Source: Halomonas salipaludis (GTDB lineage: Bacteria > Pseudomonadota > Gammaproteobacteria > Pseudomonadales > Halomonadaceae). Taken from it: 64,000 nt of DNA. Below are positions 10,603 through 25,565 of this stretch, one piece after another. The DNA is taken from the NCBI RefSeq assembly GCF_002286975.1, contig NZ_NSKB01000002.1:620001-684000 (forward strand), in the 5' to 3' direction. The notes under the pieces are model-generated. The model searched no databases. It was not told the DNA's origin and was given only the letters and a program-made list of their open reading frames with translations. Position 1 is the stretch's first letter. The number at the start of each line of letters is the position of its first letter. Both the position numbers and the translations under genes were made by a program.

Positions 10603-11400
10603 CTACCCATCTGCAAACTGCCGGCGCCAGCGACTTTCGATGGTGTCGAGCTCGGCCGGGCCGTAACGAGCGACACCGCGCCCGCTGTAGTGTGCCCAGA
10701 GCTGATCACCGTAATCGTAGTGCCACCACTCACTGGGCAGGTTGGTAAACCCCGCATCCTGCATCACCTGGTAAAGCAGGCGCCGATTATTTCGCGCCTG
10801 GCGCTGTGCCGCGCTCGGTGCTTTCAGCGTCTCGAAGTGATCGCTATGCGATGCCGGAATGGCTTCGTCGAATTGCGTGCCCATGTCGAGGGGCATGCCG
10901 TCGGCATCGCAGAGGGTGACATCCACCGCGCCCCCGGTTAGATGCGGGCTCGGTGCCAGCGGGTCGCGGCTCGGCAGCGACACGAACTCGCGCGTACGCA
11001 CCATGAGCTCGCCCTCGTCGAGGGACGGATGATGGTGGTGGATCGCTTCATGCAGCGTATCGAACAGATACTGCTGCACGCGCCATGGCCTCCAGCCATC
11101 GAGCACCACCATGCCGATCCCCTCGGGTAGCCGCCGGGCAGCCTGAAGCAGCGCCCGATAGACCCCTTCGCGTACGAAGCACTCGGGTACGGCACCGGGG
11201 ATGCCCAAGCGTGCATAGGCGGGGAACACCTTGATGGGTTCGGGCGCGAGGCTCATCGGCACGAGGCGTTCACCGCATTCGGTGATCGGCAGCGCCGACA
11301 CACGCTCCCACTCGGGAGCGTCCAGGCTGGGGACCCTGGGCAGTGAGGTGCCGTCGGCGGTTGGGGAACTTGAGGTCGGCATGGTCTTATCCAAGGACAT
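10603..11400 (-). CDS. D-alanyl-D-alanine dipeptidase (VanX/DdpX family)
   Basis: A 265-residue zinc dipeptidase of the VanX family. The ligand set is visible: His153 and Asp160 in SPHLTGGAVD, then Glu224 and His227 in EWWHYDYGD; Arg104 in DGWRPW fits the conserved substrate-side region. VanX-type enzymes split D-Ala-D-Ala. Outside vancomycin clusters they serve in peptidoglycan dipeptide use (DdpX). The start overlaps the end of the TRAP large-permease gene by 14 bases, so translation is coupled to a transporter. No signal peptide is seen, so it would act on imported or cytoplasmic dipeptide. No vanH/vanA genes are near. Confidence 0.87.
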   Translation of the reverse strand: MSLDKTMPTSSSPTADGTSLPRVPSLDAPEWERVSALPITECGERLVPMSLAPEPIKVFPAYARLGIPGAVPECFVREGVYRALLQAARRLPEGIGMVVLDGWRPWRVQQYLFDTLHEAIHHHHPSLDEGELMVRTREFVSLPSRDPLAPSPHLTGGAVDVTLCDADGMPLDMGTQFDEAIPASHSDHFETLKAPSAAQRQARNNRRLLYQVMQDAGFTNLPSEWWHYDYGDQLWAHYSGRGVARYGPAELDTIESRWRRQFADG

Positions 11401-12664
11401 GGGGCAGCCACAAGGTGAGCGGCGGGAACAGGATCAGCAGCAGTTGGACCGCGATGGCCGTCAGCACGAATGGCCAGATGGTCCGAAACAGCGAGACGAT
11501 CTCCAGCCGGCTGACTGCCGCTGCCACGAACACGCAGGCCCCCATGGGTGGCGTGATCAGGGCGATGGTAATGTTGAGCGTGATGACGATGCCCAGATGC
11601 ACGGGGTCGATCCCGGCCATCATGGCGACCGGCGCAAAGATCGGCGTGAGCAGCATCAGCGCCGAGACCTCTTCCATGAACATCCCGGTGATGAAGGTGA
11701 TGCCGCTGAGCATCAGCAGGATCAAGAAGGCGTTGTCGATATAGGGCGAGAGCAGCGTGACGAACTGCGCCGGCACCTGGGCGTAGGAGAGTAGCCAGCT
11801 GATGGTGGCCGATGCCGCCATGATCAGGAAGATCGCCGAGGTAAGACGCGAGGTATCGACGATCGCCTGCCAGAACTGCGGCAGCCGGAGCCCTCCCAGC
11901 ACGATGCCACACAGCGCGACATACAGGGCGGTCAAGGCACCCGACTCGGTCGGTGTGACAAAGCCCATGACGATGCCCGCGACGATGATGAATGGCGCCA
12001 CCAGCGCCGGCAGGGCGGCGACCGCTGCCAGACCCAGTTCCTTGGCCTTTGGCAACTGGCCGCGCTTCGGCAGGCCCTTGCGCCACGCATACCAGGCGTT
12101 CATTGCCATGAACGCCACCCCCAGCAGCAGGCCCGGGATCACCCCGGCCAGGAACAGGTCCCCCACCGAGGTGTTGGTCAGCGACGCGTAGAGAATCATG
12201 AAAATACTGGGAGGAATGATCGGCCCGATCAGCGAGCTGCCCGCCGTGAGACCAGCCGCGAAGGCGCGCGAGTAGCCTTCCCGCTCCATCGCCGGCACCA
12301 GCAGCGAGCCCAGCGCCGAGGTGTCGGCCACCGCGGACCCATTGACGCCGGCAAAGAACACGCTGGAGACGACGTTGACGTGGCCCATGCCCCCGCGGAA
12401 GTGCCCCACCAGCAGGCGGGCCAACCCCATCAGGCGCTCGGTCAGCCCGCTGACGTTCATCAGGTTACCCGCCAGGATGAAGAGTGGAATCGCCATCAGC
12501 GAGAAGACATTGATGCCCCCAAAAAACTGCTGAGGCATCATCCGCGGAATCATGCTCGGGTCGACGAAGAAGAAGCCGACCAGCGCCGTCGTGAGCAGTG
12601 CGATGAACAAGGGCAGGCCGAGCAGCACATGGCCCAGAAATACCGCCAGCATGGTCAGGATCAT
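11387..12664 (-). CDS. TRAP transporter large permease (DctM type)
   Basis: A 425-residue, very hydrophobic protein with about 12 membrane segments. It has family sequences such as FFAGVNGSAVADTSALG and IIPPSIFMILYA. Together with the small permease and the periplasmic binding protein it imports a carboxylate-type solute by sodium coupling. The start overlaps the small-permease stop by 4 bases (ATGA), and the end overlaps the VanX-like gene. Longer upstream frames are not supported. Confidence 0.93.
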   Translation of the reverse strand: MILTMLAVFLGHVLLGLPLFIALLTTALVGFFFVDPSMIPRMMPQQFFGGINVFSLMAIPLFILAGNLMNVSGLTERLMGLARLLVGHFRGGMGHVNVVSSVFFAGVNGSAVADTSALGSLLVPAMEREGYSRAFAAGLTAGSSLIGPIIPPSIFMILYASLTNTSVGDLFLAGVIPGLLLGVAFMAMNAWYAWRKGLPKRGQLPKAKELGLAAVAALPALVAPFIIVAGIVMGFVTPTESGALTALYVALCGIVLGGLRLPQFWQAIVDTSRLTSAIFLIMAASATISWLLSYAQVPAQFVTLLSPYIDNAFLILLMLSGITFITGMFMEEVSALMLLTPIFAPVAMMAGIDPVHLGIVITLNITIALITPPMGACVFVAAAVSRLEIVSLFRTIWPFVLTAIAVQLLLILFPPLTLWLPHVLG

Positions 12665-13155
12665 GATGCGGCGTCCTCCGTCGCGACCCGCAGGGGAGCG
12701 GGACCGTACCAGAGCACATGCCAGGCCAGCAGGGCAAAGCCGATGGGCAGCGACATAAGTGGAACCGTGCGGCTGACGCCCAGCCCCGAGGTGGTAAACA
12801 TGCTGACAGAGTGGGCGTAGCGGTAGCTGACCCAGGCGCCCCCCAGGGCAATGCCAAGGGTCAGCAGCCACTGGTAGACATTCAGCAGGCGGGTCAACGC
12901 AGGCGGCAGCAGTCGCTCGATCAGCGCGACACGCATATGACCGCCCTCTACCCAGACAGCACCGGCGGCGAGCATGACAGTGCCGATGATGAGAAACCGG
13001 GCGAGTTCATCGGTCCAGATCGGTGCGCCACCGGCGAAGTAGCGCATGAAGACGCCAAAGAGGATGACGCCCAGGTTGATCAGCAGCAGGCTGGCAGCGA
13101 TTGTCAGCGACAAAGGTCGGCTGACCGCCAGCACGCGATGGCGCAGTGACGACAT
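12661..13155 (-). CDS. TRAP transporter small permease (DctQ type)
   Basis: A 164-residue protein with four membrane helices and the family middle FGVFMRYFAGGAPIWTDELAR. ATG 13155 is preceded by AGGACG; the frame is open further upstream but without family sequence. It links the binding protein and large permease of this TRAP system. A hairpin lies in the 59 bases between it and the binding-protein gene. Confidence 0.9.
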   Translation of the reverse strand: MSSLRHRVLAVSRPLSLTIAASLLLINLGVILFGVFMRYFAGGAPIWTDELARFLIIGTVMLAAGAVWVEGGHMRVALIERLLPPALTRLLNVYQWLLTLGIALGGAWVSYRYAHSVSMFTTSGLGVSRTVPLMSLPIGFALLAWHVLWYGPAPLRVATEDAAS

Positions 13156-13176
13156 GGAAACGTCCTGTGGTGAAAA

Positions 13177-13196
13177 GGGGCCGAGTGCCCGGCCCC
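13177..13196 (-). other. Stem-loop after the TRAP binding-protein gene
   Basis: GGGGCCG (13177-13183) pairs with CGGCCCC (13190-13196). It sits just after the stop of the dctP-like gene inside the operon, where it could protect the upstream message or reduce read-through. Similar hairpins occur at 30833, 48257 and 63028. Confidence 0.55.
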
Positions 13197-13214
13197 GAAG
13201 GAATCCTGCTGGTA

Positions 13215-14252
13215 TCAGTCGACCAGGTCGCTCATGCCGGCGTCCTCGAGCGCCATGTCGATCCAGCGCTGCTCGATGCCACGATCCGACAACCACTCCA
13301 GGTAGGCCGGCTGGCCAATGTCACGGAAGGCTGCCAGGTCGTCCTCGGAGGGGCGGATCACCTCCATGCCCTGCTCTTCGAGGAAGGCGATACGCTCTTC
13401 CACCTGGGACTCGTTATGAACGCGGGCGTTATGGTTAGCCTCGGCAACGGCTTCCATGAAGGCATCACGCACGTCGTCGTCCCAGCCTTCGATCATCTGG
13501 CTGTTGCCGACCAGGAACTGGTTGGAGTACTGAATATTGGCCAGCGTCAGGTAATCCTGCACCTCGTAAAGGCTGCCCAGGATGATGTACATCGGCGGGT
13601 TCATCTGGCCGTCGGCGATGCCGGTGCGCAGCGACATGTACACTTCGGTCCAGGGAATCGGAGTGCCAGATGCCCCGAAGGATTCGTACAGGGCGACCTG
13701 GCTGGGATCCATGGCGCGGAAGCGCAGCCCCTCGAAATCATCGGGATGGGTAATCGGCCTCTCGTTATTGGTAAAGGCCAGGAAGCCCCCCTCCTCTACC
13801 ACCGCCAGCATATCGATACCGGCACGCTCCTTGAGCGTCGCCTCGACCTCACGCCAGTAGTCACCCTCATCGAAGAAGGCACGAGCGTCGTCGAAGTCAT
13901 CGAACAGGAACGGAATCGCACTGACGAAGATTTCATCGACCAGCGGTGAGACGCCTGCGAACGACGCCACGTTCAGCTTGGGCGTATTCATGGTCTGCTC
14001 CATGCGGTCCTCTTCTTCCCCCAGCATGCTGTTGGGATAGAGTTCCAGCTGGATTTCGCCACCGGTCTTGTCTGCCACCAGCTCCTTGAGGTTGGTGGCG
14101 AAGACGTGCACGGCGTTCTTGTCGGGATCGGGTGCGCCGTTGTAGCTCAGGTTGATGGTGGTCGCGGCCATGGCCTGGCCGGTGAGCAGCGCGCTGCCCA
14201 GCAGGCAGGCAGACGCCAGGGCAGTCAGCGGAAAAGGCTTCGAGACGGTCAT
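13215..14252 (-). CDS. TRAP transporter substrate-binding protein (DctP type)
   Basis: A 345-residue periplasmic protein with a clear signal peptide (cleavage near GQAMA-AT). It has the DctP fold signatures, including FEGLRFRAMDP, whose Arg normally grips a substrate carboxylate, and IADGQMNPPM. A good ribosome site AAGGAG precedes the ATG. It is the first gene of a four-gene operon (binder, small permease, large permease, VanX-like dipeptidase). The partner enzyme hints at a peptide or amino-acid derivative as cargo, which is inference only. The upstream LysR gene has the same orientation. Confidence 0.92.
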   Translation of the reverse strand: MTVSKPFPLTALASACLLGSALLTGQAMAATTINLSYNGAPDPDKNAVHVFATNLKELVADKTGGEIQLELYPNSMLGEEEDRMEQTMNTPKLNVASFAGVSPLVDEIFVSAIPFLFDDFDDARAFFDEGDYWREVEATLKERAGIDMLAVVEEGGFLAFTNNERPITHPDDFEGLRFRAMDPSQVALYESFGASGTPIPWTEVYMSLRTGIADGQMNPPMYIILGSLYEVQDYLTLANIQYSNQFLVGNSQMIEGWDDDVRDAFMEAVAEANHNARVHNESQVEERIAFLEEQGMEVIRPSEDDLAAFRDIGQPAYLEWLSDRGIEQRWIDMALEDAGMSDLVD

Positions 14253-16460: not shown

Positions 16461-17330
16461 CTAGTGCGCCTCGACTTCCACCGCCAGCCATTCATCGACC
16501 ATGTCCCGGTGGTTATCGATCCACTGCCGAGCACCCTCGACAGGGTCGCCCAGCTCCTCGATTACTGCCATCAGCCCACCAAGACTATCATCGTCCATAT
16601 GCCAGCCGTTGAGCACCTCGGTCAGCCAGGGGTCGTCGCTGGCGAAATCACCGCGTGAGAACCAATAAATCGTTTCATCTTCGCCGTAAATACCCTGAGG
16701 GTCCTCAAGGTACTTGAGGTCGTATTCGGCGAAAGCCCAGTGCGGACTCCACAGCGTCACGACGATGAATTCCTCATTCACATAGGCGCTGTCGAACGCA
16801 GCCATCATCGCAGCCTCGGAGCTGTTGACTTGCGATAGCGGTAGCTCGTAGTGCTCGATGGCATCATCGGTCAGACCGGCGATCGCGGAACCGCTGTCGA
16901 TGCCCAGGATGGCGGGGCGCCCCTGGTATTCGAACGCGTCAGCACGTTCTGTCAATTCCGGAATGGTGTCGATATCGACATAACTCGGAACGACGAGCCC
17001 CAGCCCAGTGCCATGGTACCAGGCGTCATGCACCGCAAGATCGTCCTCGTAGGGCTCGAGGAAGGGCTGGTCGGTGATCGGCAACCAGATCTCCATGGAG
17101 ATGTCGATATCGCCCTGGGCCATGGCCGTATATAGCGCATTCTTGCTGACATTGGAGAGCTCGATATCGTAGCCGTACTCCTCCTCCAGCAGAATCTTCC
17201 ACATATTGGCGACGGCGATATTCTCGGCCCAGTTGTTGGTACCAATTGTCAGATGCTTGTCCTGGGCTATGAGGGACTGGCTCGCCGGAATGAGGGCAAG
17301 GGCCAGTAGTGCGGATGACAGTTTCTTCAT
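16461..17330 (-). CDS. Glycine-betaine-type substrate-binding protein (OpuAC/ProX family)
   Basis: A 289-residue exported binding protein with a signal peptide to about residue 22. The mature part opens with LTIGTNNWAENIAVANMW, as in OpuAC proteins, with Trp34, Trp44 and Trp82 as candidates for the aromatic cage that holds quaternary ammonium or sulfonium groups. No ABC permease or ATPase gene is adjacent, so it is an orphan binder or serves a transporter elsewhere. It lies downstream of the DddP-like hydrolase and the 2-oxoglutarate oxygenase in the same direction, which suggests their substrate is betaine-like. Confidence 0.88.
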   Translation of the reverse strand: MKKLSSALLALALIPASQSLIAQDKHLTIGTNNWAENIAVANMWKILLEEEYGYDIELSNVSKNALYTAMAQGDIDISMEIWLPITDQPFLEPYEDDLAVHDAWYHGTGLGLVVPSYVDIDTIPELTERADAFEYQGRPAILGIDSGSAIAGLTDDAIEHYELPLSQVNSSEAAMMAAFDSAYVNEEFIVVTLWSPHWAFAEYDLKYLEDPQGIYGEDETIYWFSRGDFASDDPWLTEVLNGWHMDDDSLGGLMAVIEELGDPVEGARQWIDNHRDMVDEWLAVEVEAH

Positions 17331-17454
17331 TCGAAAAATCTCCCCGTTATCGCGTTGTATTGTTGGTGCTTGATAGTAGCAAGGTCTTCGCCACGCCCCT
17401 CCCTTGGATTGAGAATGCCTGCCATGAGAAAAGGGAATGGCGCCGCTGCTAGTG

Positions 17455-18702
17455 CTAGCCGATCAGCCTTGGATCGAAGGGATAATCCGACAGCAGCTCG
17501 ACCTGACCGTCCTCTCGGACGTACAGCTGTTCCTCGAGCTTGACGCCCTCGCCGCCGTCCTCGTGGCCAATGAAGCTTTCCACGCACAGCGTCATGCCCG
17601 GGGCGATGATGCCGTCGTAGCCCTTGTCGTCGATGTCTTCGCGGTGAACGATGTAGGGATATTCGCCGTTCATGCCCACCCCGTGCGCCAGGGCGAAATA
17701 GCGTCGTGCCCGGTAGGCGGGCGGAATGCGCCAGGCGCGTTCGGCGTACTCCTTGAAACTGACCCCAGGCTTGAGGTTTTCCATGTTGGTGCGGATCTGT
17801 TCGTAGGCCAGCTTGTAGAGGTCCCGCTGGGCCGGGCTCGCCTCGCCTTCGCCGCACAGGAAGGTGCGCGAGAAGTCGGCGTAGTAGCCGTACCGCCCCA
17901 CGACGTCGGTATCCAGGGCGACCAGCTCGCCGTCGCGGATGAGGCGATCCGAGCACTCCTGGAACCAGGGATTGGTACGCGGCCCCGAGTTCATTAGCCG
18001 CGTCTCGACGAAGTCGGCATCGGTAGCGATGATGTGCTCGTGCAGCTTGGCCCAGACGGCGTTCTCGCTGACGCCCGGCGCGATAGCGGCTTCCAGCTTG
18101 CGCACGCCGTCTTCCACGGCACGCAGCGATGAACGGATCATCTTGATCTCGTTTGGCACCTTATAGGCACGCGCCTGTTCAAGCGGCTCCTGAGCGTCCA
18201 GCACCCGGTAGCCGCGACGCTGCAACGCGAAGGCCGCTTCCGGCGTGGCGCTCTCGATGGCGATGCGCTCGCCGCCACCGCACTGGCGCACCAGCTCGAC
18301 GATCTCGTCGGCCCAGGCACGGGTCACCGCCTCGGTGTTGTTCTCGTTGAAGTAGTAGGAAATCGCCTTGGCCGGCCGGATCTCGTCCACCGTGGGCAGG
18401 TGGCTGGCCAGGTGCTCGCAGCCGGAGAACTCGAACAGCACCACTGGGCCCTCGGCGGGCACGAAGGCATAGCGCGCGGGGTTGCGCGAGCTGTAGACCT
18501 GCATGTTGCGCGAGCCGGTGGCATAGCGCACATGAGCGGGGTCGAACAGCACCGCGGCGGTAATGTCGCGCTTGGCCAGCTCGGCTCGCACCCGCCCGAG
18601 TCGGCCCCGCTGGATGCGCGGAATCTCGTCGGCGGAAGGCTCGCATTCCGCCGGTACCTGGGTGGGCGGCAGGATGCCCATGGACGCCAGGTCCATTCTC
18701 AT
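17455..18702 (-). CDS. M24-family metallohydrolase related to DMSP lyase DddP, catalytic Asp missing
   Basis: A 415-residue protein of the creatinase/prolidase (M24) fold whose sequence follows DddP closely, including SGPRTNPWFQEC, DTD...AD, LCVES, KLEEQ and the final YPFDPRLIG. The six metal-ligand positions are present with DddP spacing: Asp264, Asp266, Asp276, His340, Glu375, Glu390. The residue matching the proposed DddP base Asp377 is Gly346, in HGVGMNGEYP. True DMSP-lyase activity is therefore doubtful, and a hydrolase or lyase of a related betaine-like compound is more likely. ATG 18702 has GAGGAGA upstream. It lies 44 bases after the oxygenase gene and upstream of the OpuAC binder. 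DddP numbering is from memory. Confidence 0.82.
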   Translation of the reverse strand: MRMDLASMGILPPTQVPAECEPSADEIPRIQRGRLGRVRAELAKRDITAAVLFDPAHVRYATGSRNMQVYSSRNPARYAFVPAEGPVVLFEFSGCEHLASHLPTVDEIRPAKAISYYFNENNTEAVTRAWADEIVELVRQCGGGERIAIESATPEAAFALQRRGYRVLDAQEPLEQARAYKVPNEIKMIRSSLRAVEDGVRKLEAAIAPGVSENAVWAKLHEHIIATDADFVETRLMNSGPRTNPWFQECSDRLIRDGELVALDTDVVGRYGYYADFSRTFLCGEGEASPAQRDLYKLAYEQIRTNMENLKPGVSFKEYAERAWRIPPAYRARRYFALAHGVGMNGEYPYIVHREDIDDKGYDGIIAPGMTLCVESFIGHEDGGEGVKLEEQLYVREDGQVELLSDYPFDPRLIG

Positions 18703-18746
18703 CGGTGTCTCCTCGTCTTGGGGGCGGTCGTTCTCGTTGGGTCGGC

Positions 18747-19640
18747 TCAGTCGATCAAGCCGTCGGCGCGCGCCTCGCGGCGCTCCTCGGCCAGCATGTG
18801 CTGCTCCGAAACCCGGCCGTAGAGCTGACGGGTGCGCTCCAGACGCCCCACCACGTCCGGCGCCTGCGAATAGGCGAAGATTGCCGTCAGGCGCGGCGTG
18901 TCGCCCTCCACGCGCGTCACCCGATGCAGACTGAAGCGCCCCTTGAACAGCTGCAGATCACCCGGACGCAGGTCGAGCCGCTGGACGCGCTCCGTTCGCT
19001 CGCCGCGAATCACCGCAGCGACCTCGGCGTAGTTCTCGTCCTGGGGATTGCGGATGCTGGGACAGTATTCGAAGTCCCCGCCGCGCTCGGGCTGCTGGGT
19101 CATCATGGTGACGATGAATTCGTTGGTGTCGTAATGCCACGGCTGCTCAGTGCCGTCCGGCAGCACGTTGAGCACTAGCCCGGCGTAGGGGTCGGCATAC
19201 TCGTAGATGCGCGGCTCGCCCAGGCAGCGCTGCACCAGCGACTTCATGGCACGGGAGACATAGAGCCGGTGGATCAGGGTGTCGGCGGTGATCATGTCGC
19301 GGGTCACGAAGCCGCTGGTGCGGGTCATGAACAACCGCCGGGGATCATCCTCGGGCAGCTTGGGGTCGTCGGCGGTGAAGTAGGCGTTGACCTCGCGGGT
19401 GTTGTAGAAGCTCTTCTCGGCCATCCGCGCACTCTCCTCACGAACACGCTCGAGGCGGTCTTCGCGCAGAAAGCCGCGCAGCACGACGCAGCCCTCGCGA
19501 TCCAGGTAGGCGCGGGCCGTCTCGATGGTCTCGAGCAGTCCCGGGTCGTCGGGCCGGTGCAGGGGATACCGCGCGGTGTCGACGATATCGGAAAGGTCCC
19601 GAGCCTCGGCGTTGGCCAGGCCATGGTCGGTGGCGCTCAT
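18747..19640 (-). CDS. 2-oxoglutarate/Fe(II) oxygenase, phytanoyl-CoA-dioxygenase-like
   Basis: A 297-residue oxygenase starting at ATG 19640 with AGGAGG upstream. The facial triad is visible: His169 and Asp171 in PWHYDTNEF, and His239 in FSLHRVTRV, with Arg250 to bind 2-oxoglutarate. The intact HxD says hydroxylase rather than halogenase. Family members hydroxylate amino acids, ectoine or betaine-type molecules. It is the first gene of a likely operon with the DddP-like hydrolase and the OpuAC binder, and is divergent from a LysR gene 82 bases away. Oxidation followed by metal-dependent cleavage of an imported zwitterion is a reasonable guess. Confidence 0.85.
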   Translation of the reverse strand: MSATDHGLANAEARDLSDIVDTARYPLHRPDDPGLLETIETARAYLDREGCVVLRGFLREDRLERVREESARMAEKSFYNTREVNAYFTADDPKLPEDDPRRLFMTRTSGFVTRDMITADTLIHRLYVSRAMKSLVQRCLGEPRIYEYADPYAGLVLNVLPDGTEQPWHYDTNEFIVTMMTQQPERGGDFEYCPSIRNPQDENYAEVAAVIRGERTERVQRLDLRPGDLQLFKGRFSLHRVTRVEGDTPRLTAIFAYSQAPDVVGRLERTRQLYGRVSEQHMLAEERREARADGLID

Positions 19641-19722: not shown

Positions 19723-20625
19723 ATGGATTCAATCGGCGATTCCGATCGATCGCGCCACCCCGCCCTGGACAGCGACCTGCTGCTGGCTTTCGTCACGGTG
19801 GCCGATAGCGGCGGCTTCACCGCGGCCGCGCGCTACCTGCACAGGACGCAGTCGACCATCAGCCTGCGGGTGAGCACACTGGAGGACCGCCTCGGCACCC
19901 GGCTGCTGAACCGCACCAGCCGCCACCTGGCGCTGACGCCGGATGGCCAGACCTTCCTGGTCTACGCGCGGCGCCTGCTGCAGCTCCAGCGTGAGGCGTT
20001 GGGGGCGCTGAACGTCTCGAACGAGCCGATCACCCTGCGCTTCGGGCTGCCCGAGGACTATGCCGGCACCTGGCTGCCCGCCCTACTCGAGCGTTTCTCG
20101 ACGATTCATCCGGAGGTGCGCGTGCATATCCACTGCCGCATGTCCACCGAGCTGCTCGAGCGGCTCGATGACGGCTCGCTGGATCTGGTGCTGGCGGTGC
20201 GCCACGCCGCCGACAGCGGCGGCGAAGTGGTCGGCGAGGAGGCCGTGGAGTGGGCTGCCCATCGCGATTTCTGCCTAGACCGTGAACGTCCACTGCCGCT
20301 GGCCCTGTTCCCCGAGCAGTGCGTCTATCGACGGCGCGCACTGCAGGCGCTGACCGAGCGGGGGCTGGCCTGGCAGGTCGACTCGACCAGCCAGAGCCCC
20401 AGCGGCCTGCGCGTCATCGTCGACCAGGGCCGCGCATTGACGCTCTGCGAGCGGCGCATGGTGCCCGGGCAATGGCGAGTGCTCGGCGAGGCCGAGGGTC
20501 TGCCGCCCCTGCCTGCCGCTGAACTGGAGATCCATCGCTCGCCCAGCCTGACGCATCCGGCCTTCGAGGCCTTCGTGCAACGGCTGCGCGAAGTGATGAC
20601 GGAGGCGTTGCCCACGACGCTATAA
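19723..20625 (+). CDS. LysR-family regulator, divergent from the oxygenase operon
   Basis: About 300 residues, with the winged helix near the N-terminus (LLAFVTVADSGGFTAAARYL, then QSTISLRVSTLEDRLGTRLL). ATG 19723 is used; an in-frame ATG at 19681 would add 14 residues. It faces away from the oxygenase/DddP-like/OpuAC genes across 82 bases, the classic layout of a LysR gene and its target. The 3-prime end overlaps the next, convergent LysR gene by 6 bases. Confidence 0.9.
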   Translation: MDSIGDSDRSRHPALDSDLLLAFVTVADSGGFTAAARYLHRTQSTISLRVSTLEDRLGTRLLNRTSRHLALTPDGQTFLVYARRLLQLQREALGALNVSNEPITLRFGLPEDYAGTWLPALLERFSTIHPEVRVHIHCRMSTELLERLDDGSLDLVLAVRHAADSGGEVVGEEAVEWAAHRDFCLDRERPLPLALFPEQCVYRRRALQALTERGLAWQVDSTSQSPSGLRVIVDQGRALTLCERRMVPGQWRVLGEAEGLPPLPAAELEIHRSPSLTHPAFEAFVQRLREVMTEALPTTL

Positions 20626-21531
20626 CGAGCGCTGCGAGGGGCCATCGCTGGCCACGGCGCCCTGCAACCAGTCGTACACCAGGGTCAGCATCGGCTCGTC
20701 GCCCTGCCCCGGGCGGGTGACGAACCAGTAGGATTGATGCCCCGGCATCGCCGCCGCCAGCGGTTGCACCAGCGCCCCCTTGGCCAGTTCCCGAGCGACC
20801 ATGGCGCGGTCGGCGATGGTGATACCCAACCCTTCCAGTGCGGCGCGAATCGCCAGGTCCAGCAGGTCGAACTCCAGCCCACCCTGGGTATCGACTCCCT
20901 CGATGCCCGCCGCATCCAGCCAGTGGCGCCAGGTCGGGAAGCGATCCTCGGTGGTGCGCATCACATGCAGTAGCGTCTGCTCGCGGAGGTCCAATGGTCG
21001 ACCGTCACGTAACAGGCGCGGCGCACAGACCGCAATGTGGTTCTCCTGCATCAGGAAATGCGGCTCGACGTCATTCCAGTCGCCGTCGCCGAAGCGGATG
21101 GCAGCATCCAGAGTGCTGTCGGCAGCCAGATCGTCGCTTTCGCGAGTGGTCAGGGTCAGCGAAAGCGTGGGATAGCGCCGCCGCAGATCGTCCAGGCGCG
21201 GCACCAACCAGCGGCTGGCCAGCGTCGGCGGCACGTTGAGGCGTAAGCGGGTGAGATCCGTAGGCGAAGCGAGATCGCGCACCGTCAAGGCGATGCGATC
21301 GAAAGAGGTACTCAAGGCCGGCAGCAAGCGCCGCCCCGCCTCGGTCAAACGCAGCTGTCCCGGCCGACGTTCGAACAGCACCACCCCCAACTGCTCCTCC
21401 AGATGACGCACCTGACGGCTGATTGCGCTCTGCGTTACGTGCAAGCGCTGCGCCGCCTGGGTGAAGTTCTGGCACTGCGCGGCGGCCTCGAAGGCCTTGA
21501 GGGCATTGAGCGGTGGCAGGTAGCGACTCAT
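20620..21531 (-). CDS. LysR-family regulator (GcvA/AmpR-like group), divergent from the ALDH operon
   Basis: A 303-residue LysR protein: LPPLNALKAFEAAAQCQNFT opening, helix-turn-helix part TQSAISRQVRHLEEQLG, then a DAAIRFGDGDW segment found in the GcvA/AmpR group. ATG 21531 has GAGGTG at good spacing; a GTG four codons earlier is less likely. It is divergent from the aldehyde dehydrogenase / alcohol dehydrogenase / enolase-superfamily operon and probably controls it. Confidence 0.9.
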   Translation of the reverse strand: MSRYLPPLNALKAFEAAAQCQNFTQAAQRLHVTQSAISRQVRHLEEQLGVVLFERRPGQLRLTEAGRRLLPALSTSFDRIALTVRDLASPTDLTRLRLNVPPTLASRWLVPRLDDLRRRYPTLSLTLTTRESDDLAADSTLDAAIRFGDGDWNDVEPHFLMQENHIAVCAPRLLRDGRPLDLREQTLLHVMRTTEDRFPTWRHWLDAAGIEGVDTQGGLEFDLLDLAIRAALEGLGITIADRAMVARELAKGALVQPLAAAMPGHQSYWFVTRPGQGDEPMLTLVYDWLQGAVASDGPSQRSL

Positions 21532-21707
21532 GGCCGGCGGCACCTCATGCGTTTTTATCGGGATATGACGTCCTAGAGCTCGAATTCCCTCGACTCGCCA
21601 TGCGTTTTACTCATGACCAGGGTACCAAATCCTCGTTTGTCGCCCTAACCGACACTGCCCAGACTGACCATCGGATCCTCAACATTCAGCTCTGGAAACC
21701 GATTACC

Positions 21708-23234
21708 ATGGCCGACGATAGCGAGACGCTGACGCCCCGAACGCGCGACCTGGAAGGCTGGCGCGAGCTGGCCGCACGGGTGCCGCTGCCCAACCGCGCC
21801 TACCTCGACGGAGAGTGGCGCGACGCTGCCTCGGGCCGCACCTTCACCGCCCGCAACCCGGCCACCGGCAAGCCCCTGGCCGAGGTGGCCGCCTGCGACA
21901 GCGTTGATGTCGACAGGGCGGTGGCGATCGCGCGCCGCACCTTCGAGAACGGCGAGTGGCGCGACCTGCCCCCCACCGAGCGCAAGGCGCGCATGCTCGC
22001 CTGGGCCGATGCCATCGTCGCCCACGCCGACGAAATCGCCCTGCTCGAAACCCTGGAGACCGGCAAGCCGATCGGCCAGACCACCAGCGTGGACGTGCCC
22101 GGCCTGGTTGGCGGGCTGCGCTGGTACGCCGAAGCGCTCGACAAGCTATACGGCGAGACCGCGCCCAACGGCGCCTCCAGCGTCTGCCTGGTCGAGCGCG
22201 AGCCGATCGGTGTGGTCGCTGCGGTAGTGCCCTGGAACTATCCGTTGATCATCGCCGGCTGGAAGCTCGGCCCGGCGCTGGGCGCCGGCAACTCGGTGAT
22301 CCTCAAGCCCGCCGAGCAGTCGACGCTGGGCACCCTGCGCGTTGCCGAACTGGCGCGGGACGCCGGCATCCCAACCGGCGCGCTTCAGGTGATCACCGGC
22401 CTGGGCCACGAGGCTGGCCAGGCATTGGGTCTGCACGATGACGTCGACGCCATCGGCTTTACCGGCTCCACCGAGATCGGCAAGAAATTCCTGGAGTACT
22501 CGGCACGCTCCAACATGAAGCGCATCGGCCTGGAGTGTGGCGGCAAGAGCCCGCACATCGTCACCCGCGACGTCGACGACCTCGAGCGCATCGCCATGTA
22601 TGTCGCCTACGGCGTCTGGTACAACCAGGGCGAAACCTGCCACGCAGGCACCCGGCTGATCGTCGACCGCACCATCAAGGATGCGTTGCTGGACAAGGTG
22701 CGCCAATGGGCTGACAAGCTCCAGCCCGGCGACCCTCTCGATCCGGACACCCAGATGGGCGCGATGATCGAGCCCGAACACGCCGATAAGGTCATGGGCT
22801 ATCTCCAGCAGGGACGCGACGAAGGGGCTCGGCTGCTGTTCGGTGGCGAGCGCGTGCGCCAGGACAGCGGTGGCGTTTTCATCACGCCGGCGATCTTCGA
22901 CGAGGTCACCAACGACATGCGCATCGCCCGCGAGGAGATCTTCGGGCCAGTGCTGGTGGTGATCGGCGTCGATGGCCTCGACGAGGCCCTGGCAGTCGCC
23001 AACGATACCGACTACGGCCTCGGCGCAGCGATCTGGACCAACCGCCTGAGCGACGGCCACCGCGCCGCCCGTGCCCTGCGCGCCGGCACCGTCTGGGTCA
23101 ACTGCTACGACCACACCTCCATCAACGCGCCCTTCGGCGGCTTCAAGCAGTCTGGCCAGGGCCGCGACAAGTCGCTGCACGCCTTCGACAAGTACACCGA
23201 ACTCAAGACCACCTGGATCGAACTGGATGCCTGA
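21708..23234 (+). CDS. NAD(P)-dependent aldehyde dehydrogenase
   Basis: A 508-residue ALDH. Catalytic and cofactor residues are visible: Asn177 in PWNYP, Lys200 in LKPAEQS, Glu276 in LECGGKSP and the nucleophile Cys311 in QGETCHAGTR. It resembles PuuC/betaine-aldehyde types more than CoA-acylating enzymes. Start at ATG 21708; the frame is open about 195 bases further upstream but lacks family sequence. First gene of a three-gene operon with an iron alcohol dehydrogenase and an enolase-superfamily enzyme. It would oxidise the aldehyde made by the next enzyme. Confidence 0.92.
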   Translation: MADDSETLTPRTRDLEGWRELAARVPLPNRAYLDGEWRDAASGRTFTARNPATGKPLAEVAACDSVDVDRAVAIARRTFENGEWRDLPPTERKARMLAWADAIVAHADEIALLETLETGKPIGQTTSVDVPGLVGGLRWYAEALDKLYGETAPNGASSVCLVEREPIGVVAAVVPWNYPLIIAGWKLGPALGAGNSVILKPAEQSTLGTLRVAELARDAGIPTGALQVITGLGHEAGQALGLHDDVDAIGFTGSTEIGKKFLEYSARSNMKRIGLECGGKSPHIVTRDVDDLERIAMYVAYGVWYNQGETCHAGTRLIVDRTIKDALLDKVRQWADKLQPGDPLDPDTQMGAMIEPEHADKVMGYLQQGRDEGARLLFGGERVRQDSGGVFITPAIFDEVTNDMRIAREEIFGPVLVVIGVDGLDEALAVANDTDYGLGAAIWTNRLSDGHRAARALRAGTVWVNCYDHTSINAPFGGFKQSGQGRDKSLHAFDKYTELKTTWIELDA

Positions 23235-23235
23235 C

Positions 23236-24426
23236 ATGCCGATGAACTTCACCACCGGCCGACAGGTGCCCCTGATGGTCGGCGCCGGCGCGCTATCGCA
23301 ACTGCCCGGACTATGTCGAACCTACAAGGCCAGCAGCGCGCTGATCGTCGCCGACGCCGGCATCGCCGCCACCGGCCTGGTCGACCAGGTGACCTCACTG
23401 CTGGACGACGACCTGCAGGTAGCGCGTTTCATCGCGCCCGCCGGTGAGCCGACCCTGGCCACGGTCGACGCCGGCGCCGACGCCGCACGCAAGCTCGAGG
23501 CGCCGCTGGTGATCGGCGTGGGCGGCGGCTCCTCGCTGGACATCGCCAAGCTGGTGGCCGCCCTGGTGATGAGTCCCGGCCCGATGGCCGATTACCTGCT
23601 CGCCCGCACGCCCTGGTTAGGGCGCGCCCCCCTGGTGATGATTCCCACCACCTCGGGAACTGGCTCGGAGGTCACCCGCACCTCGATCGTTGCCGACGCC
23701 CAAGGACACAAGCAGTGGGCCTGGGGCGACGAACTGCTGCCCGAGGCGGTCCTGCTCGATCCCGAGCTGACGCGCACTCTGCCGGCGCCGTTGACCGCCG
23801 CCACTGGCCTGGACGCCTTCGTGCACGCCCTCGAGGCGACCAGCGGCCAGGGGCGCCACGTCTTTATCGAGGCCAGCGCGCTGCAGGCGATGCGCCTGAT
23901 CGGGCAGGCACTGCCGCGTACGGTGGCCGCCCCCGACGACCTCGAGGCGCGCCAGAAGATGCAGGTCGCCGCCTGTCTTGCGGGCCAGGCGATCGACAAC
24001 GGCGGCACGGGCTTGGGGCACAATATCGGTCATGCCCTCGGCTCGCTCTACCACCTGCCGCATGGCGTCGCCGTGACGCTCGGTGTAGAGGCCACCCTGG
24101 CCTGGACGATCAAAGGGCGCGAGGCCGTCTTCGCCCCGGCGGCCAATGCGCTGGCCAGTGGCACGGCAGCGCGAGACCTGCCCGCGCGCTTCAGTGCCCT
24201 GGTCGATGCCGCCTGCTTCAACGAGGCGCTGGCGCCCTTCGCCGACCTCGAGATGGATGTCGAGGCGCTCGCCGCGGCCATGCAAGCCGCGGAGAATGCC
24301 CCCATGGCCGACAACGCCGCGCGTCGGCCCGGCGCCGACGACTGGCGTGCGCTCGCCGAAGCCACGATATCGCTGTTCGAGCGCCGCCTGACCTTCCTGA
24401 AAGCCGCCCAGGAGCAGCCCGCATGA
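23236..24426 (+). CDS. Iron-containing alcohol dehydrogenase
   Basis: A group III alcohol dehydrogenase of about 396 residues. It has the nucleotide loop [12 protein letters not shown] (94-105), [11 protein letters not shown] (138-147) and metal ligands Asp193 and His197 ([11 protein letters not shown]), His262 and His276 (HG). Start codons at 23227, 23236 and 23242 are all in frame; 23227 would overlap the ALDH gene. It is followed by a 4-base ATGA overlap with the enolase-superfamily gene. Likely oxidises an alcohol to the aldehyde used by the upstream ALDH. DddB of DMSP pathways is of this class, though the match is only at family level. Confidence 0.92.
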
Positions 24427-25565
24427 GCGTCATCGAACGCATCGACATCAGCCATCACCAGCAATTGCTCGAGCCGCCTTTCCCTGCGGCCTGGGACAGC
24501 CAGCCGCGCCGGCTGTTTCCGGCGACCCTGGTCCGCGTGATCGACAGCGAAGGGCGCGAAGGCGTCGGCTCCGGCGATGCGATGTACGGCTTCGAGGACT
24601 TTCGCTCGCTGTTCATCGGCCGCGATCCACTGGACCTGGAACGCCACAGCGGAGTGATCGACAACATCGGCTTTCATGCCGGGAGATGCTGGCCGCTGGA
24701 GGTCGCGCTCTGGGACCTCGCCGGCAAGATCCGCGGCGAGCCGGTGTGGCGCATGCTCGGCGGCACATCAAATCGCCTGCGCGCCTATGCCTCAAGCGGC
24801 ACCCACCGCCCGCTCGAGCAATTGGTGGCCCTGGCCGAGCAGGTGCGCGACGCCGGCTTTGCGGCCATGAAGCTGCGCTTCGGCCGCCCCCGACTCGACG
24901 ACGACCTGGCGGCCCTGGCGGCGGTGCGCCGAGCGCTTGGCGAGACATTCACTCTGATGGTGGACTGCAACCAGGGCTGGCGCATGCCCTGGGACGTGCA
25001 GGCTCCCTGGGACCTGGCCAAGGCCAGCGAGGTGGCCGAGGAGCTGATCCGTCACGACGTGCTGTGGATGGAGGAGCCGCTCTACCGGGGCGACTATCCC
25101 GGCATGGCGGCGCTCAACGCGCATACCGGCGACCGGCTGAAGATCGCCGGCGGCGAGATGACCCGCGAGCCCTACGAGTTCCATGAGATGCTGCGGCGCG
25201 ACTGCCTGGACGTTTACCAGCCCGACGCCGTCTGCTCGATCGGCATGCTGGGGCTGGCCCGATTGGCGCGGGAGGTGACCGCGCACGGCAAGTGGTTCAC
25301 CCCGCACACCTGGGGCAACGGCATCGGCCTGATCGCCAACCTGCACCTGACCGCCGGCAGCGTGGGCCCGAAGGGCTGCCCATACCTGGAATTCCCCTTC
25401 GACCCGCCGGAGTGGACGCCCGAAGCCCGCGACTATCCGCTCCTCGCCCCGCTGACCACCGACGACGCCGGCTGGCTGTCCCTTTCCGAGGCCCCGGGCT
25501 TGGGCATTGCCCTCGACGAGCAGCGCCTGCGCGACACTCGCGCCGACCAGGCCACCTATACCTGA
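24423..25565 (+). CDS. Mandelate racemase/muconate lactonizing enzyme family protein (enolase superfamily)
   Basis: A 380-residue enolase-superfamily enzyme starting in the ATGA overlap with the alcohol dehydrogenase gene. Metal ligands are Asp181 (MVDCNQGW), Glu217 (MEEPLYRGD) and Glu245 (AGGE). Base candidates are Lys150 in KLRFG on one face and His295 in HTWGNG on the other, the layout of acid-sugar dehydratases and racemases. Substrate is not clear, but a dehydratase or racemase for a hydroxy acid would link to the two dehydrogenases upstream. A longer frame upstream in the same phase is a shadow over the alcohol dehydrogenase. Confidence 0.9.

Follow-up and report, generated by a model that had tools for sequence, protein, structure and literature searches.

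A Gly/Arg-Type Relative of DddP Paired with a BesD/HalD-Type Dioxygenase in Halomonas salipaludis: A Candidate Module for Betaine-Type Solutes

The locus

The window analysed here is a stretch of 64,000 nucleotides from Halomonas salipaludis (contig NZ_NSKB01000002.1, positions 620,001 to 684,000), in which three minus-strand open reading frames (ORFs) follow one another in the order dioxygenase, M24 protein, OpuAC-type binder (Table 1). These encode a predicted Fe(II)/2-oxoglutarate (2OG) hydroxylase, a pita-bread metalloenzyme of the M24 family related to the dimethylsulfoniopropionate (DMSP) lyase DddP, and an OpuAC-type substrate-binding protein. To judge from shared strand and spacing the three genes would form an operon; a promoter scan of the locus found no sigma-70-like site, and a terminator scan gave one terminator-like match, on the opposite strand, which is no more than shuffled sequences give. 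The closest locus among the matches listed is that of Halomonas faecis, with an M24 protein 96% identical. A first-pass annotation of the window had read the set as serving to take up a betaine- or sulfonium-like solute, hydroxylate it, and cleave it in a metal-dependent step. The betaine-like part of that proposal is the best reading of the evidence described below, and the dioxygenase and M24 genes prove to be a conserved pair; the sulfonium substrate gained no independent support. With confidence standing at about even, the pair is read as the two enzymes of a catabolic module, whose substrate would be an amino-acid solute of the betaine (quaternary ammonium) type; this solute would be imported, hydroxylated and then cleaved by a metal-dependent enzyme. 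The substrate is probably neither DMSP nor glycine betaine.

Table 1. Genes at and around the dioxygenase-M24 pair (window coordinates)
Feature	Coordinates	Strand	Remarks
OpuAC-type substrate-binding protein, subfamily with one OpuAC Trp replaced by Met	16461..17330	-	289 aa; PF04069
M24 pita-bread metalloenzyme, Gly/Arg type, DddP-related	17455..18702	-	415 aa; G346, R73, six metal ligands
BesD/HalD-type Fe(II)/2OG hydroxylase (predicted)	18747..19640	-	297 aa; H169-x-D171...H239, R250; PF23169, fold
LysR-type regulator, divergent	19723..20625	+	82 bases from dioxygenase gene
Second LysR (GcvA-like)	20620..21543	-	homologue also near the pair in Pseudomonas loci
Aldehyde dehydrogenase, start not determined	21702..23234	+	conserved neighbour in 8/8 Halomonas/Vreelandella/Onishia loci (L005-L012)
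Iron-containing alcohol dehydrogenase ORF, true start probably further downstream	23071..24426	+	within same conserved 8/8 block
Enolase-superfamily protein; top models are acid dehydratases, below cut-offs	24423..25565	+	within same conserved 8/8 block

The M24 protein and its relation to DddP

Residues 26-415 of the M24 protein (390 residues) align with DddP (Protein Data Bank (PDB) entry 4b28) at an E value of 1.5e-78. The metal ligands of DddP are D295, D297, D307, H371, E406, and E421 (PMC4108388), and their counterparts D264, D266, D276, H340, E375, and E390, together with Y335 at the position of Tyr366, are identical in 109/109 aligned rows, as the first-pass annotation had stated for the six ligands. 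The 109 rows comprise 107 M24 rows, the window's included, and two DddP chains; the 107 count one gene twice (L002 = L086, the second copy in this genome), species may repeat, and the rows are not independent. The overlay on DddP that had been proposed as a check agrees: the predicted structure superposes on 4b28 with a template-modelling (TM) score of 0.90 and a root-mean-square deviation of 1.8 A, with the ligands kept. The DddP structures are its best solved relatives (32-34% identity), followed by the folds of creatinase and Xaa-Pro peptidases.

The replacement of the DddP residue Asp377 by Gly346, also noted earlier, is evident from the alignment of the DddP motif HGVGLCDEWP with HGVGMNGEYP of the M24 protein. 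Tyr366 and Asp377 are reported to be invariant among DddP lyases, and Asp377, which the annotation had called the proposed base, is the favoured but not proven catalytic base for abstraction of the alpha-proton (PMC4108388). Of the 109 rows, 77 have Gly at position 346 and 31 have Asp; the single Asn belongs to the D377N mutant 4s01, which was scored as Asp in the Gly/Asp counts. Residue 73 varies in step, being Arg in every Gly346 row and His in every Asp row (107/107 M24 rows), and at an 80% identity filter (15 vs 18 rows) positions 346 and 73 are the only two that are fully conserved within the Gly and Asp groups yet fully different between them. In a maximum-likelihood tree of 46 rows, drawn from the 109 by an 86% identity filter, all 24 Gly rows form one clade (support 100/96), the Gly/Asp state changes once, and the two DddP rows fall on the Asp side. 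Read from these alignments, Gly346 belongs to a coupled switch from Asp/His to Gly/Arg that spans the clade, and is not the isolated loss of a catalytic residue. A decayed or inactive DddP was rejected on the grounds that all ligands are kept and that Gly/Arg is conserved across one clade. Arg73 may face the active site of the partner subunit, given the domain that holds it.

The solved DddP structures (4b28, 4rzy, 4s00, 4s01) share with the window protein the fold, the six ligands, Tyr366, and the Glu following Asp377; the window protein differs in having Gly346 for Asp377 and Arg73 for His98, in belonging to a separate clade, and in scoring below the curated level, and its clade differs further in carrying a HalD-type dioxygenase gene immediately upstream in 60/77 rows. 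The NCBIfam DddP model NF043017 is the best NCBIfam model for the window protein, but the score is 328.8 bits against a cut-off of 600; five other Gly-type proteins score 301.5-376.2 bits and the Asp-side L083 reaches 609.6 bits. These data bear on whether the M24 protein could be a lyase of DMSP or dimethylsulfoxonium propionate (DMSOP) that tolerates Gly at position 377, in a DMSP cluster with an unrelated dioxygenase. DMSP can travel through betaine importers, which together with the structural match and the best-model rank favours such an enzyme, but the low score, the absence of the reportedly invariant Asp from all 77 clade rows, and the place of DddP across the split make it very unlikely. 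Close relatives of the window protein in Paraburkholderia and Pseudomonas, mainly soil and plant bacteria, also speak against it. Ocean surveys count DddP genes as DMSP lyases (e.g., PMC10686828), and Asp/His versus Gly/Arg is a switch readable from sequence that marks a separate clade; members of the Gly/Arg clade probably should not be counted as DMSP lyases.

The ectoine hydrolase DoeA resembles the window protein in its M24 fold and in serving compatible-solute catabolism in Halomonas (PMC3187862). The DoeA and EutD models nonetheless give 43.1 bits (cut-off 575) and 24.3 bits (cut-off 613) on the window protein, by which DoeA was rejected; the DoeA-like genes of this genome (L003, L004), which also score below cut-off, are found at other places. 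One of these, a DoeA/EutD-like M24 gene scoring 334.5 of 613 bits (L004 1-3461; G000:C30), is adjoined by transporter-like and M20-peptidase-like ORFs, as judged by eye.

The dioxygenase and its pairing with M24

The dioxygenase matches the Pfam HalD family PF23169 with 53.1 bits (cut-off 26), and 9/9 other dioxygenases that were scanned likewise exceed the cut-off. Its HxD...H/R set, annotated earlier as complete, is confirmed as H169, D171, H239, and R250, and among 76 aligned dioxygenase rows these are retained in 76, 76, 76, and 75, respectively. An AlphaFold2 model (mean predicted local distance difference test score, pLDDT, 87) retrieved HalA, HalB, HalD, BesD, or the lysine hydroxylase homologue 7jsd at all of Foldseek PDB ranks 1-41, and a family profile search by sequence recovered the same kinds of protein. 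The lysine/ornithine halogenases BesD, HalA, HalB, and HalD and the hydroxylase 7jsd share with the window dioxygenase the fold, the HalD Pfam family, and the Fe/2OG residues. The halogenase HalB has Gly at the position of the HxD Asp, where the lysine hydroxylase has Asp, like the window protein; since D171 is Asp in 76/76 rows, the enzyme is predicted to be a hydroxylase, and a halogenase was rejected. In BesD the lysine ammonium group is held by D239, D143, and E123 (PMC13244439). Unlike the BesD/Hal group, to which it is 15-20% identical, the window dioxygenase has T172 and Y152 opposite BesD D143 and E123 in a HMMER alignment of remote relatives, in which D239 could not be placed; among the 76 dioxygenase rows an acid occurs at either position in 0/76. 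The missing acids fit a substrate that lacks a free ammonium group, such as a betaine, as far as so remote an alignment can be read.

Homologues of the HalD type also occur on Pantoea, Klebsiella, and Enterobacter plasmids (H47, H49-H70; L088), where the gene is named arpA in two records (H63 and H69) and where the match touches a DUF2817 or M14-family metallopeptidase gene in most listed records, an arrangement that places another dioxygenase beside a peptidase fold.

The first-pass annotation had expected the three genes to occur together in other genomes, and for the dioxygenase and M24 this is the case. Searches of 121 genomes of the host family gave 97 matches to the dioxygenase (E up to 1e-20) and 101 to the M24 protein (E up to 1e-60), and 91/97 of the former are followed immediately, on the same strand and at a gap of 41-332 bases, by an M24 gene, the pair being present in 57/121 genomes. 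Ten of the 101 M24 matches are unpaired, and of the six unpaired dioxygenases five are only 34-35% identical. A wider search of named genomes with the M24 query gave at least 584 loci, the best 80 of which include 41 with a dioxygenase directly upstream and 39 with none in the locus; paired loci were found in Halomonas, Vreelandella, Chromohalobacter, Salinicola, Onishia, Paraburkholderia, Burkholderia, Caballeronia, Pseudomonas, Marinomonas, and Amphritea. Pairing was set by hand from tblastn places for L011 and L025 and from genome-search coordinates (genome G022) for L121, and L105, in which the two genes adjoin but diverge, was counted as unpaired. Working alignments A1, A2, and A3 comprised 22, 34, and 30 rows hand-chosen from the fetched loci. 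Pairwise distances of the two proteins are correlated at r 0.96, a value reached in 0/2000 permutations (20 of 58 pairs after a 90% filter), and groups A, B, and C of the M24 tree recur in that of the dioxygenase; these groups constitute three paralogous lineages. Within the close group the dioxygenase and M24 genes are a tightly conserved unit.

A different function for this unit, namely production of a hydroxylated compatible solute or secondary metabolite in a biosynthetic or osmolyte-editing module, would agree with the biosynthetic roles of the characterised BesD and HalD relatives, which are amino-acid halogenases and hydroxylases (as known for the family and from PDB titles), and with the tuning of osmolytes by hydroxylation, as in hydroxyectoine, many of the hosts being halophiles. 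Such a role appears unlikely, as the divergent LysR gene, the nearby importers, the adjoining aldehyde and alcohol dehydrogenases, and the methylmalonate-semialdehyde dehydrogenase (MMSDH) of a lineage C locus look catabolic, and so does the patchy presence of the pair.

The binder and other importers

The membership of the binder in the OpuAC family, as annotated, is supported by 210.1 bits to PF04069 (cut-off 21.2) and by its PDB relatives 3tmg, 2b4l, and 7ahc. The annotation had further pointed to Trp residues for a cationic group, and this holds in part. The positions of W57, W164, and W168 of the Lactococcus lactis OpuAC stretch are Trp in all 32 aligned rows, a set shared with OpuAC/ProX glycine-betaine binders. 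The Trp at index 215, which is present in L. lactis OpuAC, Borrelia ProX, and this genome's own OpuA-type protein (L130), is Met in the window protein, and in the M24-linked binders it is Met in 28/30 and Leu in 2/30. These binders also differ from OpuAC/ProX proteins by new Trp residues at positions 44 and 104 (30/30 each), 243 (28/30), and 223 (26/30). The index-215 residue is presumably the third Trp of the betaine cage, and its loss suggests, at the level of sequence, a betaine-like ligand other than glycine betaine.

The binder is not an obligatory partner, and the evidence for three-gene co-occurrence is correspondingly mixed. This 5.48 Mb genome has 10 OpuAC matches, and each of its two Gly-type M24 genes is directly followed by one; the second M24 gene (G000:C1:659317-660477; L086 9306-10565), 54% identical to the first, has no dioxygenase, and it is one of several Gly-type M24 genes that sit with OpuAC in this way. 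In a related genome (L124) a locus of this second type, M24 followed by OpuAC, neighbours a dioxygenase-M24-OpuAC run, as if the two loci served one solute with and without prior hydroxylation. Among 59 fetched paired Gly-type loci, which are partly redundant, 37 have an importer gene of the betaine type (OpuAC, ProX, OsmF, or BCCT) no more than 6 kb away, 10 have a Dpp-type importer, and 12 have neither. Betaine-type importers lie as close to 6/17 unpaired Gly-type rows and 2/29 unpaired Asp-type rows, a contrast favoured by search seeds taken mostly from Gly-type loci, so that other kinds of importer near Asp-type genes may be missed; trimethylamine-methyltransferase and dimethylglycine-dehydrogenase-like genes occur near 14/29 of the unpaired Asp-type rows.

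The kind of importer varies with lineage. In lineage A, OpuAC is found in Halomonas and Chromohalobacter, for the most part a ProX-type ATP-binding cassette (ABC) importer in Paraburkholderia, and a Dpp-type importer in Pseudomonas; Chromohalobacter has in addition a dioxygenase-like gene (by eye) and BCCT transporters. Lineage B has OpuAC or BCCT, and some of its Chromohalobacter loci add a regulator of the GlxA type and a gene resembling gamma-butyrobetaine dioxygenase (311.4 bits, cut-off 414.75). Lineage C has AGCS, Liv-type, or OsmF/ProX-type importers, with none of these in 4/10 loci. In 6/10 fetched lineage C loci (L107-L116) an aldehyde dehydrogenase gene lies directly downstream; the name MMSDH rests on the one such gene that was scored (643.4 bits against 448.5), the seed for the neighbour search matching any aldehyde dehydrogenase. 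Homologues of the divergent LysR gene adjoin the pair at most loci of lineages A and C, and lineage B has a different LysR cluster. With the binder varying between loci, the three-gene unit was set aside as the functional module in favour of the two-enzyme pair.

Annotated plasmids carry dioxygenase homologues with trimethylamine methyltransferase genes, in one case with a Rieske-type gene and in another with a Dpp-like importer, and an annotated plasmid carries a lineage C M24 gene with a glycine betaine ABC importer. Two Sinorhizobium loci (L090 and L129) combine lineage C M24 with genes for an isochorismatase-family hydrolase, a glycine betaine ABC importer, an enolase-superfamily protein, and an Ldh-family protein, and L090 also has a trimethylamine methyltransferase family gene.

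The neighbourhood evidence also bears on whether the M24 protein acts as an ordinary hydrolase of amides or peptides, on a dipeptide or opine-like compound that is hydroxylated or N-methylated, with the dioxygenase acting before or after hydrolysis. M24 proteins are mostly exopeptidases and amidohydrolases, and creatinase and Xaa-Pro peptidases come next after DddP among the folds; the Dpp-type importer of Pseudomonas lies directly after M24 in one locus (L028), a four-gene ABC importer of Dpp-like appearance stands beside a dioxygenase homologue in a Rhodobacteraceae record (M382), and the Gly-type M24 gene of Sinorhizobium is followed by the isochorismatase-family hydrolase. Set against this are the OpuAC, ProX, or BCCT importers of most lineage A and B loci, the scores of the Xaa-Pro peptidase, methionyl aminopeptidase, and ectoine hydrolase models, all far below their cut-offs, and the activity of the nearest characterised relative found, DddP, on a small sulfonium acid. 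Such a hydrolase is accordingly a less probable reading than a module for a betaine-type solute, though the strongest of its competitors.

A putative route and the surrounding genes

In the favoured reading, import, hydroxylation, and cleavage of a betaine-type solute, the OpuAC-type protein would bind the solute outside the cell and would have to borrow an ABC permease and ATPase, because the three-gene run encodes neither. The BesD/HalD-type enzyme would then hydroxylate an unactivated carbon with O2 and 2-oxoglutarate, and the two-metal centre of the Gly/Arg-type M24 enzyme would bind the product through its carboxylate and new hydroxyl, with Arg73 from the partner subunit holding the carboxylate, and would break a bond adjacent to that hydroxyl. 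A DddP-type Asp base might not be needed, because the substrate is proposed to supply its own metal-activated hydroxyl. One expected product is an aldehyde or acid, passed to neighbouring dehydrogenases; the other is a smaller betaine or an amine. Release of an aldehyde would account for the dehydrogenase genes next to lineages A and C, and the MMSDH gene directly downstream at one lineage C locus suggests such a product. What the sequences show is the identity of the genes, the intact active-site residues, the residue switch, the pairing and co-divergence of the two genes, and the association with betaine-type importers in lineages A and B; the class of solute, the order of steps, the bond broken, and the role of Arg73 are inferred. 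The phosphonate pathways TmpA-TmpB and PhnY*-PhnZ are similar in combining 2OG-dependent hydroxylation with two-metal cleavage beside the hydroxyl, and TmpB releases glycine betaine; they differ in the fold of the second enzyme and in acting on phosphonates.

Several observations weigh against this scheme. M24 enzymes are mostly hydrolases, and the dehydrogenases next door could serve other pathways. Betaine-type importers are absent within 6 kb from 11/17 unpaired Gly-type rows and from 8/10 lineage C loci, and the Dpp-type importers, again within 6 kb, are those of 10 Pseudomonas loci. Class-wide the pairing fades: in 321 genomes, 10 with a dioxygenase match and 17 with an M24 match, the 16 dioxygenase matches comprise 3 with M24 on the same strand (the window's included), 1 divergent, and 12 apart, as judged by eye. 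Hydroxylation would not always be coupled to cleavage, because 17/77 Gly rows, including those of Bacilli, Sinorhizobium, and the second copy in this genome, lack an adjoining dioxygenase. Conversely, an Asp-type M24 gene stands beside a same-strand HalD-type dioxygenase gene on a plasmid of Pseudomonas sp. MPC6 (L087 7953-10190), and another beside a divergent one in L105; both of these M24 proteins branch next to the Gly clade. Finally, the placing of Arg73 is a matter of deduction, and the residue belongs to a stretch with a pLDDT of 73-75 in the monomer model.

A narrower version, which is tentative and rather unlikely, would make the Gly/Arg M24 protein an aldolase-type lyase for beta-hydroxy betaines that uses two metals and no pyridoxal 5'-phosphate: an alpha-trimethylammonio acid would be hydroxylated at C-beta and split between C-alpha and C-beta, yielding an aldehyde together with glycine betaine. 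For lineage C, glutamate betaine would in this way give malonate semialdehyde, to be passed to the adjoining MMSDH. If true, the pita-bread fold would have a reaction new to it, one that arose next to a DMSP lyase through the change from Asp/His to Gly/Arg, and halophiles would draw food as well as osmoprotectant from an exotic betaine.

More broadly, the pair looks like an undescribed breakdown route for a betaine-like nutrient in salt-loving and soil bacteria, and the presence of a dedicated hydroxylase with most of the clade suggests that halophiles, Paraburkholderia, and Pseudomonas have an undescribed step in the catabolism of betaine-type solutes. No account of the dioxygenase-M24 pair was found in the titles and abstract openings of the best-ranked papers of the open-licence literature, and a root-exudate paper (PMC8079746) gave no M24 or phytanoyl terms. 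The pairs and their relatives provide ready-made material for studying how the chemistry of an M24 active site can change.

Beyond the regulators, the dehydrogenase/enolase block at window positions 21702-25565 is possibly a separate acid pathway. Elsewhere in the window, at positions 10603-14252, a protein resembling D-Ala-D-Ala dipeptidases of the VanX/DdpX type is encoded beside genes resembling those of a tripartite ATP-independent periplasmic (TRAP) transporter and a LysR gene, as judged by eye, which is an odd pairing.

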